From contig CANRFV010000001.1 of NCBI GenBank assembly GCA_947629985.1, positions 113,329 to 177,328 on the forward strand: DNA of 64,000 nucleotides. Reading direction: 5' to 3'. This DNA comes from an uncultured Clostridia bacterium. Its GTDB lineage: Bacteria; Bacillota; Clostridia; Christensenellales; CAG-314. The notes under the pieces were generated by a model. The model was not told the origin of the DNA, did not search any database, and saw only the letters and a list, made by a program, of their open reading frames with translations. The position numbers and the translations under genes are program-made. Positions 11,490 through 18,309 of the stretch are shown one piece after another; the first letter of the stretch is position 1; each line of letters opens with the position of its first letter.

Positions 11490-11942
11490 TTACAATAACT
11501 GTTTTATTTGAAGTTGCACTTCGGCAGCGTCCGCAACGCTTGCGCAAACGGCAAGGACCGTGCTTCTGTCGGCAAGCAAGCCCACGCAATTTTGCAACGG
11601 CAACTGTTCCAAGGCGCTTGAAACTGCGGCGGCACCGTCGTTGATTGTCTTTACCACAACGAGATTTTCGGCGATAACTACCGAAATTACCGCTTCGCGC
11701 ACCACGTTTTTGAGTTTCAACGACAATTGTCCCGCGTCAACTTTTTGCTTGGTAACATATTTATACTTGTTGTCGGGCGTAAGCGTTTTTATAAGACCCA
11801 ATTCCTTGATGTCGCGAGAAATTGTCGCCTGCGTAATATCGAAGCCGGCATAGCGCAATTCGGAAACCAATTCGTCCTGAGTTTCTATATCTTTGTTGGA
11901 AATTATATTAAGTATTGTTGATTGCCTTGATGCTCTGGACAT
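11490..11942 (-). CDS. argR: Arginine repressor ArgR/AhrC
   Basis: Arginine-dependent hexameric regulator of arginine metabolism; 150 residues. The N-terminal winged helix contains TQDELVSELRYAGFDITQAT (about 21-40) and the recognition-helix segment ATISRDIKELGLIK; the C-terminal half is the oligomerisation and arginine-binding domain. GGAGG precedes the ATG by four bases. No arginine genes are in the window; the position between dxs and recN is conserved in Bacillota and says little about regulation. A perfect 23-bp palindrome lies 60 bp upstream. Confidence 0.95.
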   Translation of the reverse strand: MSRASRQSTILNIISNKDIETQDELVSELRYAGFDITQATISRDIKELGLIKTLTPDNKYKYVTKQKVDAGQLSLKLKNVVREAVISVVIAENLVVVKTINDGAAAVSSALEQLPLQNCVGLLADRSTVLAVCASVADAAEVQLQIKQLL

Positions 11943-12087: not shown

Positions 12088-13881
12088 TTACAACATTTTT
12101 TCGATAACTGCCCGTACACTATCGACGTCAAGTCCGCTTTGATGTATTTGCTCGTCTACGGTTGCGTGCTTAATGTATGTATCGTCCACGCCCAAATTGC
12201 GCACCGTTATGCCGCGGTTTTGCGCAAAATGCATTGTCAACAGACTTCCGAACCCGCCGTAAACTACGTTCTCTTCCAATGTGATAACGTTGCAATCTAC
12301 GCCGTTCAAATATTCTTCGTCCAACGGTTTTACTGTCGTAACGCCCACTACTTCAACACTGTCAATATTCTCCGACGCGGACAAGCCTATATTTAACATT
12401 TTGGCGCCCACGCACAATACACAAAGTCTGCGAGCCGATCCGCCCTGTTTTACTATATCCCAATGCATAGTGAAATCGCGGCTTTCGCTATCGAGCGTTC
12501 TGCCGTATCTGATAGCAACCGGTCCGTCAACAGATACGCTCCGACAAATCATTTGCGAAAGTTGGTTGTAACTTGACGGTGTCCAAATTTGCAAATTGGG
12601 AATATGCGACAAATACGACAAATCAAACAGCCCCTGATGTGTTTGACCGTCTTCGCCCACAAACCCCGCTCTGTCTATTAGCAATGTAACGGGCAAATTT
12701 TGCAATGCCACATCGTGCAAAATACAATCGTAACTGCGCTGCAAAAAAGTAGAATATATTGCAACAAACGGACGCATACCACCCTTTGCCAAGCCTGCAG
12801 CAAATGTTACGGCATGCTCTTCGGCTATGCCAACATCGTAGCAACGTTGGGGAAAACGCTCCTTGAACGTACCCAATCCCGTTGCGGTTGTCATAGCGGC
12901 GCTTATCGCCACAATGTCAGAACGCTCTTGCGCCAAGCGACAAAGCGTGTCTCCCACCACGGCGGCGCTTTCCAATTTGTCCGATTGAACGCCCCCGCGC
13001 GGTACCGAATGGTAATATTCAGGATCTTTTTCCGCAGGCAAATACCCTTTGCCTTTTTTTGTTGCAATATGTAATACGGTAGGTTTGCTTACGTTGTTTT
13101 TTATTTTATTCAGGTAGTAAACCAAATCTTTTACTTCGTTGCCGTCTACAATGCCGATATATTTTACGTCGAAGTTATCGAAGTAACTGTTGCGCACAAA
13201 ATGCGATTTTAATCGACGTTTACACCAACGCAAAAATTTGTACGACGGCTTGCCCACAAGTGGAATTTTAAGCAAAAATTTTTTAAGCCGCTCTTTGTTT
13301 CGGTCGTACTTACCAACGCGCAATTTGGAAAGGTTAAGCGTTGCCGTTCCGACGTTATCCCCGATAGACATATTGTTGTCGTTTAGCACGATTAACATTT
13401 TGGTATCTTTTACGTTGTTAAGCGCCTCGTACGTCAAACCGCAAGTCATACTACCGTCGCCAACAACCGCCACAACGTTGTAATCAAGCCCCAAAGCGTC
13501 GCGTGCCGAAGCAATGCCCAATGCCGCGGATATTGCCGTGCCCGCATGCCCTGTGTTGAAGGCGTCCGATTCGCTCTCTTCGCAATCGGGAAAACCGCTC
13601 AAACCGCCCTTTTGACGTAACGAAGAAAAATTCTCACCCCGTTGGGTAAGAATTTTGTGTACGTAACTTTGATGACCGACGTCCCAAACTATTTTGTCGC
13701 GTTCGTCAAATACGTAATGCAACGCCACCGTAAGTTCCACAACGCCTAAATTGCTTGCCAAATGTCCGCCGCTTTGCATAACGTCGTCAATCAACTTTTG
13801 CCGCAATTCTGCGCACAATTGGGGAAGTTGCTTTACTTCCAATTGTTTAAGATCGGATACGGTCTTTATCTTTTCAAGCAA
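12088..13881 (-). CDS. dxs: 1-deoxy-D-xylulose-5-phosphate synthase
   Basis: Thiamine-diphosphate enzyme that condenses pyruvate and glyceraldehyde 3-phosphate, the entry step of the MEP isoprenoid pathway. The 597 residues include HLASNLGVVELT (about 40-51), the ThDP motif GDGSMTCGLTYEALNN and NDNNMSIGDN in domain I, and the transketolase-type DRAGFVGEDGQTHQG in domain II, which marks Dxs. The start is TTG at 13881, only two bases after the oapA stop, with AGAAGG as ribosome-binding site inside the end of oapA, so translation is coupled to OapA. Other MEP genes here are dxr and ispG; ispA lies on the other side of the OLE RNA. Confidence 0.97.
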   Translation of the reverse strand: MLEKIKTVSDLKQLEVKQLPQLCAELRQKLIDDVMQSGGHLASNLGVVELTVALHYVFDERDKIVWDVGHQSYVHKILTQRGENFSSLRQKGGLSGFPDCEESESDAFNTGHAGTAISAALGIASARDALGLDYNVVAVVGDGSMTCGLTYEALNNVKDTKMLIVLNDNNMSIGDNVGTATLNLSKLRVGKYDRNKERLKKFLLKIPLVGKPSYKFLRWCKRRLKSHFVRNSYFDNFDVKYIGIVDGNEVKDLVYYLNKIKNNVSKPTVLHIATKKGKGYLPAEKDPEYYHSVPRGGVQSDKLESAAVVGDTLCRLAQERSDIVAISAAMTTATGLGTFKERFPQRCYDVGIAEEHAVTFAAGLAKGGMRPFVAIYSTFLQRSYDCILHDVALQNLPVTLLIDRAGFVGEDGQTHQGLFDLSYLSHIPNLQIWTPSSYNQLSQMICRSVSVDGPVAIRYGRTLDSESRDFTMHWDIVKQGGSARRLCVLCVGAKMLNIGLSASENIDSVEVVGVTTVKPLDEEYLNGVDCNVITLEENVVYGGFGSLLTMHFAQNRGITVRNLGVDDTYIKHATVDEQIHQSGLDVDSVRAVIEKML

Positions 13882-13883
13882 TT

Positions 13884-14549
13884 TTAACCTTCTTTACGGA
13901 AAATACTCAATATTTTGGCAACGCCGAAAATAATGTTGTTGGCTTTGTTTACGGCAATTCTTTTTCCCACCGCTTTCAAGGTTATCGTAAGGGTGGATAT
14001 CACCGCATATATCACTACGGAAATAACAAAATTCCACACGGGTTGCAACTGCGTCATTCTTACGGCTTGGGCGGCTATTGCAGCGGCGCACACACCGGAG
14101 ACTATTCCGCATACGTCGCCGACGATATCGTTGCAAACCGACGATACAACGTCGCTTTTTTGCGCAAATTTTACGGCGAGTTTGGCTCCTTTTACCTTAC
14201 GCGAAGCCATAGACAAAAACGGTCCCACATCGCACGACGTAGCCGCCGTTCCGATAACGTCGAAAATTACGCCCAACAACAATATAACAACCGTCAGTAT
14301 CGACGCCCACCACAGTTGCGAGTCTTCCAACACCACTTCGGACGCAGCGTTTACCGCCGCCGCCAAAAAGAATGTTATAATACACGCCTTTAATGGCCAC
14401 AAATTGTGTTTTTTGCGCTTTTTGTCTGCCTTATTGTCGTGTTTTTTGTCCGCAGCACTGTTACTGCCGTTTTGTGTTGATAGCGTTTGTTCCGTTTCTG
14501 TATCGCCACGACTGTCGTCCGATCGCGGAACCGAATCCGAATTTTTCAT
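13884..14549 (-). CDS. oapA: OapA, OLE RNA-associated membrane protein
   Basis: Predicted membrane partner of OLE RNA. The 221 residues begin with a hydrophilic, Lys/Asp-rich tail of about 48 residues, then four hydrophobic segments at about 52-72, 80-104, 144-164 and 171-192. Conserved-looking features are FDVIGTA (about 96-102) and D107, the basic SRKVKGAK (about 116-123), and the D141-I-V-G-D145 motif, the DxxxD signature described for OapA; the accompanying RxxxD motif is not obvious here. The ATG at 14549 is preferred to a TTG at 14561 because GGAG falls within the latter's codons. Gene order ispA-OLE-oapA-dxs equals that known for OLE loci. Identification is from motif, topology and context. 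Confidence 0.85.
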   Translation of the reverse strand: MKNSDSVPRSDDSRGDTETEQTLSTQNGSNSAADKKHDNKADKKRKKHNLWPLKACIITFFLAAAVNAASEVVLEDSQLWWASILTVVILLLGVIFDVIGTAATSCDVGPFLSMASRKVKGAKLAVKFAQKSDVVSSVCNDIVGDVCGIVSGVCAAAIAAQAVRMTQLQPVWNFVISVVIYAVISTLTITLKAVGKRIAVNKANNIIFGVAKILSIFRKEG

Positions 14550-14620
14550 ACTACTCCGCAATAATTTATTTTATACCGACAAGCATATCTGCCGCTCATC
14601 GGTAATTTGTGTATAAAAAA

Positions 14621-15217
14621 GGTGGTGGCTTGTCAGATAAACCTTACGGCATAGGTTCAGTAGGATTTCCCAAGCAAAAACTTCCCGTCGCCGAAGAAGC
14701 AGTTTCCTTTTACTTTTGCTCATGCGGCGTTACCGCTCGCACAACTGAATCGCCACTAAGTCCGTACTATAATCTCCAACAAGTCTGGTTTGCAGTCTAG
14801 AAGATTTCCTTTACAGATACCAACCTATTTTAGTTTCTTTTGCAAAGTTCATTTCGTAAAGCCATCGGTTTGTGTCGTAGGCCAACAAGCACAAGCCGTT
14901 CAATACTCCCAAAACTTCACTCAAAACAGGCTACACTGTACACAGCTTTTTATTCACCGCATAGCAGGTTTAACCTCAGAGAGTAATTGCTTGTCAATCA
15001 GACAACTACCCTGTAGAGTCTCCACGACCGGTGGGAGTATAACGTATGCCATTACGTCTTACCCGCCGATCTTAACTTCCAGCACAAGCCCCCGTTTGGG
15101 CAACGAAAGCCAGCACAAGAAACTTCATCGATATGCCCGTCGGCGGTCTTTTAGGCCCGCCTTCAATACGTCAGTTTCTGACTAGAATACTGCACCACCT
15201 AAATTTATTAAGTTGTA
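14621..15217 (-). ncRNA. ole: OLE RNA (ornate, large, extremophilic RNA)
   Basis: About 597 nt of noncoding DNA between ispA and oapA with every hallmark of an OLE RNA gene: the family is about 600 nt, lies in the ispA-dxs region of anaerobic or extremophilic Bacillota, and is followed by oapA. A promoter (15224-15252) sets the 5' end near 15217. AGGTGGTG at 15200-15193 can pair with CCACCACC at 14628-14621, which is followed by six U, closing the RNA end to end and defining the 3' end. Internal stems include GGCGG/CCGCC (15161-15157 with 15146-15142) and TTGTC/GACAA (15005-14991). The RNA binds OapA at the membrane in the characterised system. RNase P RNA, tmRNA, SRP RNA and group II intron motifs are absent. 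No covariance search could be run. Confidence 0.85.
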
Positions 15218-15223
15218 TTTTGT

Positions 15224-15252
15224 ATTATACCACATATTAACGCAATTTGCAA
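15224..15252 (-). promoter_or_regulatory. Strong promoter of OLE RNA
   Basis: TTGCAA (15252-15247) and consensus TATAAT (15229-15224) on the minus strand with a 17-nt spacer. It lies directly after the ispA terminator, so OLE, oapA and dxs form a separately started transcript. Confidence 0.8.
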
Positions 15253-15321: not shown

Positions 15322-16131
15322 CTACTTTGTACGCGAAAGATTTTGATCGCAAAAATCTTTTATAAATTGAAGATCGTATTGTAACGAATCGCAAGATGCT
15401 TTTATTTCGTTACTCAATTTTTCGGCATACTCTATCAAATCGCGCTCGCTGAACATATCCAAAAAGGATTTTTCGCATTTTTTCGAGTCGATTATATCGT
15501 CAATTATTTGATAGCAAATGCCCAATTTTTGCGCAATGTCGTCAAAAACGGTAATCTCGCTGTCGTTTGCACCGCCGCAAATCGCGCCGCAAACCAATGC
15601 CGCGCGCAACAAATCGCCCGTTTTGTGCAAAGCGACGTCATTCGCTTGCTCTACCGTCGTGGTTTCGGTAAATAGATCCAGCGACTGACCGTGGATCAGT
15701 CCGCCTATTCCGCTCTTGCCGAACAGGAAAATACATGCGGCTTGGTATTTTTTGGAGGACAGCGGTCCGCTCAACGCCGTTTCCACGGCAAGATTCAACA
15801 GCGCGTCTCCTGCCAAAACGGCGGTCGCTTCGCCGAACTGCATATGGCACGCACGCTTGCCGCGACGAAAATCGTCGTTATCCATGCACGGCAAATCGTC
15901 GTGGATCAACGAATAGGTATGCACAAACTCTATCGCCGCCGCCAATTCTTTGGCGCCGCCGTTTACGCTGTTGCCGACGGCTTTGCACGTTTGCAACAAC
16001 AGCAACGGTCTGAAACGTTTACCGCCGGTAAACAAACTATATTCCATCGCTTGCAATACCTTGTCGTTGCCTTTGGGAAGGTAGCCTTTCAATATTTCAT
16101 CAATAAATTCTACGTTGATTTTAGTTTTCAT
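15322..16131 (-). CDS. ispA: Polyprenyl (farnesyl-type) diphosphate synthase
   Basis: Chain-elongating prenyltransferase that makes farnesyl or geranylgeranyl diphosphate from IPP and DMAPP. The 269 residues show GGKRFRPLLL (about 32-41), the first Asp-rich motif HDDLPCMDNDDFRRG with the four-residue insertion of bacterial type II enzymes, and the second YQIIDDIID. The product length cannot be fixed from sequence. Its start overlaps the 3' end of xseB by 11 nt, so xseA-xseB-ispA are coupled. It supplies substrate to UppS elsewhere in the window. Confidence 0.92.
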   Translation of the reverse strand: MKTKINVEFIDEILKGYLPKGNDKVLQAMEYSLFTGGKRFRPLLLLQTCKAVGNSVNGGAKELAAAIEFVHTYSLIHDDLPCMDNDDFRRGKRACHMQFGEATAVLAGDALLNLAVETALSGPLSSKKYQAACIFLFGKSGIGGLIHGQSLDLFTETTTVEQANDVALHKTGDLLRAALVCGAICGGANDSEITVFDDIAQKLGICYQIIDDIIDSKKCEKSFLDMFSERDLIEYAEKLSNEIKASCDSLQYDLQFIKDFCDQNLSRTK

Positions 16132-16321
16132 CGGTTATCCTCTTTGCTTTTTCCTGCAAAATTTCAAGTTTGCCCTTGCAGTCGTTTAATATTTCCATAC
16201 ATTCGCTTGCCAATTTGACGCTTTCTTCAAATATTTCCAAAGATTTTTCCAGTGAAACCTGCTCGTTTTCCATTTGCTCTGTCAAACTGTCGAGTTTGTC
16301 CAATTTTTCTTCAAGACTCAA
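16121..16321 (-). CDS. xseB: Exodeoxyribonuclease VII small subunit
   Basis: Small helical subunit of exonuclease VII, which degrades single-stranded DNA to oligonucleotides with XseA. The TTG at 16321 is preferred over one at 16345: AGGAGG lies nine bases upstream of it and the protein then starts SLEEKLDKLDSLTEQMENEQ, like other XseB proteins, with the family pattern LEKSLEIFEESVKL following. Length 66 residues, normal for the family. It overlaps xseA by 11 nt and ispA by 11 nt. Confidence 0.9.
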   Translation of the reverse strand: MSLEEKLDKLDSLTEQMENEQVSLEKSLEIFEESVKLASECMEILNDCKGKLEILQEKAKRITDEN

Positions 16322-17495
16322 TGTTGTTTTCCTCCTTGCCGACAACTGTTGCGGTTATTGTGCCGTCGCTTACGCGTGCGCGCAATTCATCGCCTACTTT
16401 TACTTTGCTTACGGAATCGATTACCGTATTGCCGTTATACAGCCACCCGAAGCCCCTTTTAAGCACCGCGGCGGGATTCAGTGCGTCCAATTTGGCAAGC
16501 CTGTTTGTCAAATTGAGTTGCGCCTTGTCCAACTTGCCTGCGGCATTGCCGTCAACGCTGCGTAACGACGACCTTATTCTGCCAAAACAGCCGTCGATAC
16601 GACGTTCAGTCAAATACCGTAAAATTTTAATATCGGATACAATATTTTCAGAATGACTGCGTAACGCCGCGCCGATATGCTCGTAAATCTGTTCCAAATC
16701 GTGTTTTATACGGGTGCGTTCACGCGCGACGTCCAGCGTAACAAATTCCGCCGCTTCGCTGGGCGTAACCGCACGCTTGTCCGCAACAAAATCGCACAGA
16801 GTAAAATCTATTCCGTGTCCAACTGCGGACACTACGGGCTTGCCGCACGCGGCTATACTGCGCACCACCGTTTCGGAATTGAAAACAGACAGATCTTCGT
16901 TGGAACCGCCGCCGCGCCCCACAATAACGACATCGACGTCGCTTGTACCGAAATAATTTATTCCGTCGGCTATTTCCGACTCCGCACCCGCGCCTTGTAC
17001 CTTTACGGGATACAAATAAATTTTCGCAAACGGTTGCCGCCGCAATGCGACGTTGACAATATCGTGTATGACCGCGCCCGTTTCGCTTGTTACAACGCCG
17101 ATTTTGGCACAGCAATGCGGCACAGGCTGTTTACGTTCTTCGTCAAACAGTCCTTCTTTTTGCAACTTGTCTCGTAACAACACAAATTGCAAATATGCGG
17201 CGCCCGTATTGCTGGTAGCGGTAAGTCTGCGAACGAACAAAGACAACGTTCCCGATTTTACCCAATATCTCAGTTGCCCTTCAGCCACAGCCACGTTACC
17301 CGCAACAGGCTGAACTTGACTGTCGTAACAAAAACAGTTGATTGCGCCGCCTTCGTCTTTAAGCGAAAAATACCAGCCGTCGCGCGCCTTTTTTACATTG
17401 GTTATTTCACCGCAGACGAACAAATCGCTCAGAACAGTATCCAAATCCAACACGCCGCGGATATAGTTGTTTAGTTGTGTAACAGTTATTGTCAT
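16311..17495 (-). CDS. xseA: Exodeoxyribonuclease VII large subunit
   Basis: Catalytic subunit of exonuclease VII (mismatch repair and recombination). The 394 residues have an N-terminal OB fold starting MTITVTQLNNYIRGVLD, with the substrate-binding stretch FVCGEITNVKKARDGWYFSL at about 25-44, then the XseA nuclease domain with the conserved VGRGGGSNEDL and VSAVGHGIDFTLCDFVADKRA segments, and a helical C-terminus. The ATG at 17495 lies one base after the folD stop; a longer in-frame reading overlaps folD and lacks family similarity. Confidence 0.95.
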   Translation of the reverse strand: MTITVTQLNNYIRGVLDLDTVLSDLFVCGEITNVKKARDGWYFSLKDEGGAINCFCYDSQVQPVAGNVAVAEGQLRYWVKSGTLSLFVRRLTATSNTGAAYLQFVLLRDKLQKEGLFDEERKQPVPHCCAKIGVVTSETGAVIHDIVNVALRRQPFAKIYLYPVKVQGAGAESEIADGINYFGTSDVDVVIVGRGGGSNEDLSVFNSETVVRSIAACGKPVVSAVGHGIDFTLCDFVADKRAVTPSEAAEFVTLDVARERTRIKHDLEQIYEHIGAALRSHSENIVSDIKILRYLTERRIDGCFGRIRSSLRSVDGNAAGKLDKAQLNLTNRLAKLDALNPAAVLKRGFGWLYNGNTVIDSVSKVKVGDELRARVSDGTITATVVGKEENNIES

Positions 17496-17496
17496 T

Positions 17497-18309
17497 TCAA
17501 TTGCCAATTGCCCGCAACAAGTTTTCGAACAGCATAATGCGCGTAACGGGCCCGACGCCGCCCGGAACGGGAGTAACGGCTTTGCATACGCCGTAAACTT
17601 CGTCCGCAACGTCGCCGTGCGTTTGTCCGTTTACAAAACCGAGCCCCACGTCTACAACAATACTGCTTGACGTAACAAAGTCTGCGGTTATCAAGTCGGG
17701 TTTACCGCACGCCGTTATCAGAATATCGGCGCCGCGACAAATGCGAGCCAATTGTTTCGTGTGCGTGTGGCACACCGTAACGGTTGCGTTACAGCCCAGC
17801 GCCATTAACATCAGCGGTTTGCCCACAGCATTGCCTCTGCCTACTATTACTACATTTTTGCCGTCGAGATCTATTGCGTAAAAGCGCAGCAACTCCAATA
17901 CGGCAAGAGGCGTTGCAGGTCGCACACCTGCCCTGCCGTAATACATATCAGCCACCGACGCCGGGTTGAGACAGTCCAAATCTTTGTAGGGCGAAATGCA
18001 GGACAACACCGATTTGTATTCGTCGGGCAACGGTTGTTGCACCACGATCCCGTTTACGGTAACGTCGTCCGAAAGCGCCGAAACAATAGCGCATACGTCG
18101 TCCGCAGACGCGCGTCGATCCAAAATCACATTTTCGCACTGTACGCCCAAATCGCGCGCGGTTACACACAGCGACTTGCAATATTGTTGCCAATCGGCGT
18201 TATCGAAGCCAACGGTAACGATTTTTGCCGAACGTTGAGACAAAAGGCTACGCAATTTTTGCTTTGCGCTGTCGACAAACGACTTGCCGTACAGTATTTG
18301 CGCGCTCAC
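17497..18309 (-). CDS. folD: FolD-family methylenetetrahydrofolate dehydrogenase/cyclohydrolase, catalytic Lys replaced
   Basis: Normally oxidises 5,10-methylene-THF and hydrolyses methenyl-THF in one-carbon metabolism. The 270-residue protein (family about 285) has DVTVNGIVVQQPLPDE, the NADP site VGRGNAVGKPL and the C-terminal PGGVGPVTRIMLFENL, so the fold and folate/NADP sites are recognisable. In the N-terminal motif YxxxK, Tyr is present (Y43) but the position of the catalytic lysine is Leu47 (sequence Y-C-K-S-L), and spacing to the downstream glycine shows no shift. Cyclohydrolase activity may be lost or altered. The GTG start overlaps the nusB stop (GTGA) and AAAGGAG precedes it. Confidence 0.9.
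   Translation of the reverse strand: MSAQILYGKSFVDSAKQKLRSLLSQRSAKIVTVGFDNADWQQYCKSLCVTARDLGVQCENVILDRRASADDVCAIVSALSDDVTVNGIVVQQPLPDEYKSVLSCISPYKDLDCLNPASVADMYYGRAGVRPATPLAVLELLRFYAIDLDGKNVVIVGRGNAVGKPLMLMALGCNATVTVCHTHTKQLARICRGADILITACGKPDLITADFVTSSSIVVDVGLGFVNGQTHGDVADEVYGVCKAVTPVPGGVGPVTRIMLFENLLRAIGN

Follow-up and report, generated by a model that had tools for sequence, protein, structure and literature searches.

A full-length OLE RNA gene and its OapA partner in an uncultured Clostridia genome, and OapA genes without OLE in related genomes

Introduction

OLE RNAs form a described class with 2,822 matches in Bacillota according to the excerpted text of PMC11332333. In the literature, their hosts are characterized as anaerobes or extremophiles. 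The same excerpts suggest that OLE and its protein partner OapA (OLE-associated protein A) perhaps never occur apart, and they treat the motif DxxxD as a hallmark of OapA that CNNM domains do not have. Excerpts of PMC12286853 on the published structure of OLE describe the GGCC of apical loop L9.3 as the kissing loop of the dimer. Here we analyze a 64-kb stretch of an uncultured Clostridia genome (contig CANRFV010000001.1; "the window" denotes this whole stretch), which carries an OLE gene followed by oapA, and we compare it with genomes of the host order. We put a probability of roughly three in four on our explanation as a whole, which combines the identity of the two genes with a proposed mode of action in which OLE regulates a cation-handling membrane protein. 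Below, G stands for a genome, L for a fetched locus, and f and g for a family and a genus within the host order.

Results

The OLE RNA and its OapA

Scanning the window with cmscan gave a match to the Rfam OLE family (RF01071; Table 1) of 447.1 bits (E = 5.3e-128), about 397 bits beyond the gathering score of 50; the match spans 609 nt of the minus strand and covers the covariance model entirely (positions 1-616 of 616). It is the sole Rfam match in the window to reach a gathering score, and a genome-wide search of the host returned one OLE match. A preliminary description of this DNA, made from its letters alone, had proposed an OLE RNA in a noncoding stretch of about 597 nt; the class and the noncoding character hold, but the length is 609 nt by the covariance model. 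That description had also named a reading frame conserved across relatives as an argument against OLE, and none was found across 30 OLE loci, where the longest open stretch had a median of 40-46 amino acids over the three sense frames and 52-66 over the three antisense ones. The string TTGGCC was found in 24 of these 30 loci. The ends of the window OLE are complementary (GGTGGTG at 15193-15199, and CACCACC at the 3' end before a T run near 14620) and are unpaired in the Rfam structure; at L008 both sides are changed, to GGTGGCA and TGCCACC.

A promoter-like element sits 9 nt upstream of the start of the OLE match. The mean promoter score over the 30 OLE loci was 9.8 of 12 versus 8.25 in shuffles, and the region holds three promoter-like sites against 2.0 ± 1.5 expected, which is no clear excess; as an OLE promoter, the element is suggestive only.

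The gene for the 221-amino-acid protein begins 56 nt past the end of the OLE match. Its D141 and D145 are invariant in alignments A1 (14 sequences from 14 genomes) and A2 (54 sequences), and DxxxD is likewise invariant in 44 OLE-linked OapAs and in 17 OLE-free OapAs from each of the families f6 and f26. An FDVIGTA motif occupies residues 96-102; both motifs had been placed correctly for the reading from the ATG at 14549. The predicted fold is CNNM/CorB-like, with residues 77-217 aligned to 7m1t; a first helix (51-74) is extra to the aligned range, and in the long, charged N-terminal tail the predicted local distance difference test score (pLDDT) is below 50 at residues 13-34. Within a set of 61 genomes, host included, OLE was present in 47 and the OapA model matched 50, one weakly, and oapA came directly after OLE in 29 of 30 fetched OLE loci, the remaining locus ending at a contig end. 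A Pfam and NCBIfam scan of the window protein gave nothing over cut-off (CNNM, 15.6 bits versus 28.4), and no OapA model was encountered there. The proposed assignment to OapA was therefore judged by position, residues invariant in the 14 sequences, co-occurrence and predicted fold, all of which concur. It is virtually certain that the window holds a complete OLE RNA gene and, next to it, the gene for its OapA. Because OLE is already a known class, the window adds one further OLE locus of a known kind, and its RNA and protein are ordinary members of an already described system.

OapA genes without OLE

The survey comprised 395 genomes of the host order, evenly drawn with a completeness of at least 90% requested. 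OapA was matched in 216 genomes, or 208 once eight weak matches (G053, G071, G083, G156, G165, G248, G331 and G404; E = 1.8e-7 to 6.7e-4) had been dropped before the count; these are taken as MpfA-type because PF03471 is matched in each of the eight genomes and the one fetched, from G053, lies in a 452-amino-acid frame. OLE was found in 153 genomes, or 154 with the contig-edge case G261. Both occurred in 152 genomes, OapA alone in 56 and OLE alone in two. We refer to OapA genes in genomes without OLE as orphans. G261 was rejected as an orphan for its partial OLE (146.6 bits) at a contig edge, reducing the orphan total from 57 to 56, and the appearance of a split or doubled OLE in G014 and G019 was rejected because the contigs end inside the gene. 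The two genomes with OLE and no detected OapA, G072 (C47:57735-58358) and G367 (four OLE matches), reflect contig breaks or real loss.

The orphan genomes belong to f6 (30), f26 (23), f24 (2) and f8 (1), and their fetched loci include L058 (G041), L038 (G043), L039 (G142), L040 (G188) and L045-L066. At the G041 and G043 loci the order is xseB-ispA-oapA-dxs, with ispA-oapA gaps of 33 and 91 nt, respectively, and oapA stays at the ispA-dxs site in all 13 f6 loci examined. Eight of the nine f26 orphan loci have no ispA, dxs or xseB match, and the ninth, in G307, reads xseB-oapA-argR-recN. Four OLE-bearing f26 genomes examined (G081, G284, G340 and G353) carry a second, OLE-free OapA copy (L090-L093) beside the OLE-linked one. 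In L047, L048, L050 and L053 the OLE-free f26 OapA lies near sub-threshold matches to the ribosomal L20 leader (27.3-49.2 bits; gathering score, 58.7). No description of OLE-free OapAs was found in the literature searched, and some of them may already be present in the tree figure of the OLE authors.

Residues D97, D141, G144, D145, G152, K192 and K196 are present in all 17 f6 and all 17 f26 OLE-free rows, and at a frequency of 1.00 in the 44 OLE-linked rows (G152 rounding aside). Since OLE-free OapAs exist and keep these acidic and lysine residues, OapA seems to hold a job without the RNA. The existence of 56 OapA-bearing genomes without OLE, together with the retention of D97, D141, D145, K192 and K196 in the OLE-free rows examined, likewise speaks against OapA being a mere membrane anchor with no function of its own, for an OLE that is mainly a stress-response scaffold or a ribozyme. 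Ribozyme and bTOR proposals and a list of partners have been published (excerpts of PMC11332333 and PMC12265935), and we regard this explanation as unlikely while giving it some weight.

It is improbable that the orphan genomes harbor an OLE that the Rfam model misses because the RNA has diverged or shrunk too far. A permissive re-search of 42 of the 56 orphan genomes gave none over cut-off (best, 11.7 bits), and cmscan at E ≤ 1 found no OLE in 20 distinct orphan loci (L031 repeats one; L032 is included). A missed OLE is easier to imagine for the remaining 14 genomes, searched by strict filters with two candidates per genome, and the permissive search depends on a loose first look, with no signal from anything in one of its runs. 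However, the same kind of search recovered the window's own OLE, and within f24 and f26 themselves OLE is detected at 344 bits or more. In all 16 ispA-linked orphan loci, 51-204 nt separate the stop codon of ispA from the OapA core, which leaves no room for OLE, and blastn against an OLE-bearing sister showed no remnant of the RNA in the ispA-oapA intervals of G142 and G188.

That the orphans are distant CNNM proteins at that site by chance is very improbable: the fetched f6 orphans do score lower (144 to 172 bits, versus 172 to 254 for OLE-linked proteins), and G041, the one orphan tested, clears the Pfam threshold for CNNM with 35.2 bits where the window OapA fails, but orphans keep the OapA-distinctive DxxxD, stand between ispA and dxs in all 13 f6 loci examined, and on the tree described below group with OLE-linked OapAs, those of f24, f3 and others, and away from MpfA (support 99).

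A candidate OLE-recognition loop

Comparison of the sequences makes residues 110-123 of OapA a candidate for the part that reads OLE. The pattern [AS]Mx[AST]x[KRHNQ], which is residues 113-118 of the window OapA, occurs in 43 of the 44 OLE-linked OapAs, L018 being the single exception, and in none of 33 orphans, four second copies and five MpfA proteins; M114 on its own is still found in two of the 33 orphans. The pattern columns fit all 80 named OapA loci, which were kept for their similarity to the window OapA and are hence biased to OLE-linked ones; OLE was seen in 77 of them (68 by a fuzzy 5' motif and nine by cmscan), and at L151 and L186 the sequence starts only a short way from oapA. 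The predicted model places the loop after membrane helix 2 and before helix 3, where it makes up portions of two short helices. With the lysine-rich N-terminus inside, as the positive-inside rule has it, the loop would face the cytoplasm. The N-terminal charge showed no clear difference as an OLE-linked feature (means 5.4, 6.3 and 5.5).

Several points weigh against this role for the loop. The pattern was worded after the alignment had been viewed and is a post hoc correlation with few independent OLE losses behind it; in a sign test, all three well-supported independent pairs agree, which gives p = 0.25 and cannot reach 0.05. In addition, L121, from a Bacilli metagenome-assembled genome (MAG), has an OLE-type loop and no OLE in the 2.5 kb upstream, which may count as a counterexample if its OLE is not located elsewhere. 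Finally, relaxed constraint following the loss of OLE could hit the loop for other reasons.

Loss of OLE and the distribution of MpfA

A quick maximum-likelihood OapA tree was made from 86 rows, leaving out same-genus near-copies (L017, L019, L021-L023, L025-L028, L030, L033 and L036), duplicates (L031 and L032) and three of the MpfA fetches (L103, L104 and L108). All 17 f6 orphans cluster together, with an unstarred support of 94, and their neighbors are f24, f3 and f8. G188, which has no OLE, pairs with the OLE-bearing G096 (support 98), and G142, also without OLE, falls outside this pair. Over 81 OapA rows, OLE presence requires at least six changes.

MpfA was judged by a PF03471 match, which was obtained in 21 of the 154 genomes that carry OLE, in 35 of the 56 orphan genomes and in 160 of the 185 that have neither OLE nor OapA (OLE versus PF03471, Fisher p = 6e-42, uncorrected for kinship). 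Among the orphans the match is found in 29 of 30 from f6, three of 23 from f26 and all three others (both genus-g61 orphans and the f8 orphan); the other 20 f26 orphans lack a match to PF03471 as well as OLE. From this distribution, a takeover by MpfA fits f6, f8 and f24 but not f26. Genus g61 makes the swap between OLE and PF03471 visible among close relatives: of its seven genomes among those analyzed, five have OLE and no PF03471 match, and two show the reverse, both with oapA after ispA.

Gene neighborhood and other partners

The gene order is spoIIIAG, spoIIIAH, asp23, nusB, folD, xseA, xseB, ispA, OLE, oapA, dxs, argR, recN and spoIVB, the local cluster being the classical ispA-OLE-oapA-dxs arrangement. 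The preliminary description had correctly placed ispA, the membrane-protein gene and, two bases past the stop of the latter, dxs. ArgR is listed as a candidate OLE partner from unpublished data in the excerpted PMC12265935. The cluster is flanked by sporulation genes, which fits the earlier remark that the genome is of a sporulating type: SpoIIIAH is over its cut-off (PF12685, 81.4 bits), SpoIVB slightly under (TIGR02860, 299.4 bits; cut-off, 305.25) and SpoIIIAG under (TIGR02830, 57.2 bits; cut-off, 147.7). FolD is also below its NCBIfam cut-off.

In the host genome (93% complete), KOW matches were NusG-like, L24-like and one weak, and no further small KOW protein that could be OapB was seen with a profile that may be too weak to detect it. 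An L7Ae-family protein was found in an 84-amino-acid frame (27.5 bits, confirmed by Pfam), and its neighbors read as rpoC and rpsL on visual inspection; we take it to be YbxF/OapC, a putative orthology resting on synteny.

Table 1. Features of the OLE locus in window coordinates.
Feature	Position	Strand	Basis or remark
OLE RNA (RF01071), full length, 609 nt	14606..15214	-	cmscan; single genome match
GGCC palindrome, apical loop L9.3	14880..14883	-	OLE model alignment; computed position
Promoter-like TTGCAA-17-TATAAT, TG preceding second hexamer	15224..15252	-	scores 10/12
oapA, 221 aa from ATG 14549, four predicted membrane helices	13884..14549	-	position, residues, predicted fold
DxxxD codons (D141-D145) of OapA	14115..14129	-	invariant in alignments
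OapA residues 110-123 (PFLSMASRKVKGAK), candidate OLE-recognition loop	codons 14181..14222	-	between helices 79-105 and 132-165
ispA, polyprenyl synthetase	15322..16131	-	PF00348, 148.9 bits
dxs, TTG start	12088..13881	-	TIGR00204, 607.6 bits
argR, arginine repressor	11490..11942	-	NF001680, 130.9 bits, under cut-off 184
xseB and xseA, usual upstream neighbors	16121..17609	-	TIGR01280, TIGR00237, both over cut-off

Discussion

We propose that the OLE RNA is folded, probably into a dimer, and would be anchored to the membrane through OapA, a putative CNNM/CorB-like four-helix protein in which D97, D141 and D145 together with K192 and K196 may serve divalent-cation handling. OLE would be the regulatory part, as the CBS and HlyC/CorC domains are in MpfA, and would tune OapA under stress, perhaps through contact with the loop at 110-123. 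Drawn from the literature and the local anatomy, this mechanism appears to us moderately probable. A more specific version is tentative, and we hold it at a little under even odds: OapA would be an autonomous CNNM-like cation handler, OLE would serve it as a regulatory RNA subunit and would have been lost repeatedly while OapA was kept, often alongside an MpfA-type protein, and the loop would be where OLE is read.

The genomes with oapA after ispA and no OLE make it possible to separate OapA's own role from the contribution of the RNA, and they hint at a short loop as a possible RNA contact. If the proposal is true, OLE-free OapAs would be control proteins for the RNA's added effect.

Compared with the OLE RNAs of Halalkalibacterium halodurans and Clostridium acetobutylicum, the window OLE has the same full-length model match, length, ispA, oapA and dxs neighbors and GGCC dimer-loop palindrome, whereas its nearest named relatives are gut-type MAGs, not cultured extremophiles. 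Its OapA shares with described OapA the position, four membrane helices, DxxxD and CNNM-like predicted fold, and differs in the long charged N-terminal tail, where model confidence is low. With the CNNM-CBS-CorC transporters MpfA, CorC and CorB it shares the predicted transmembrane fold over residues 77-217, but it lacks their CBS and CorC parts and possesses the extra first helix. As in the full OLE ribonucleoprotein of H. halodurans, a candidate for OapC (YbxF) is present in the host genome.
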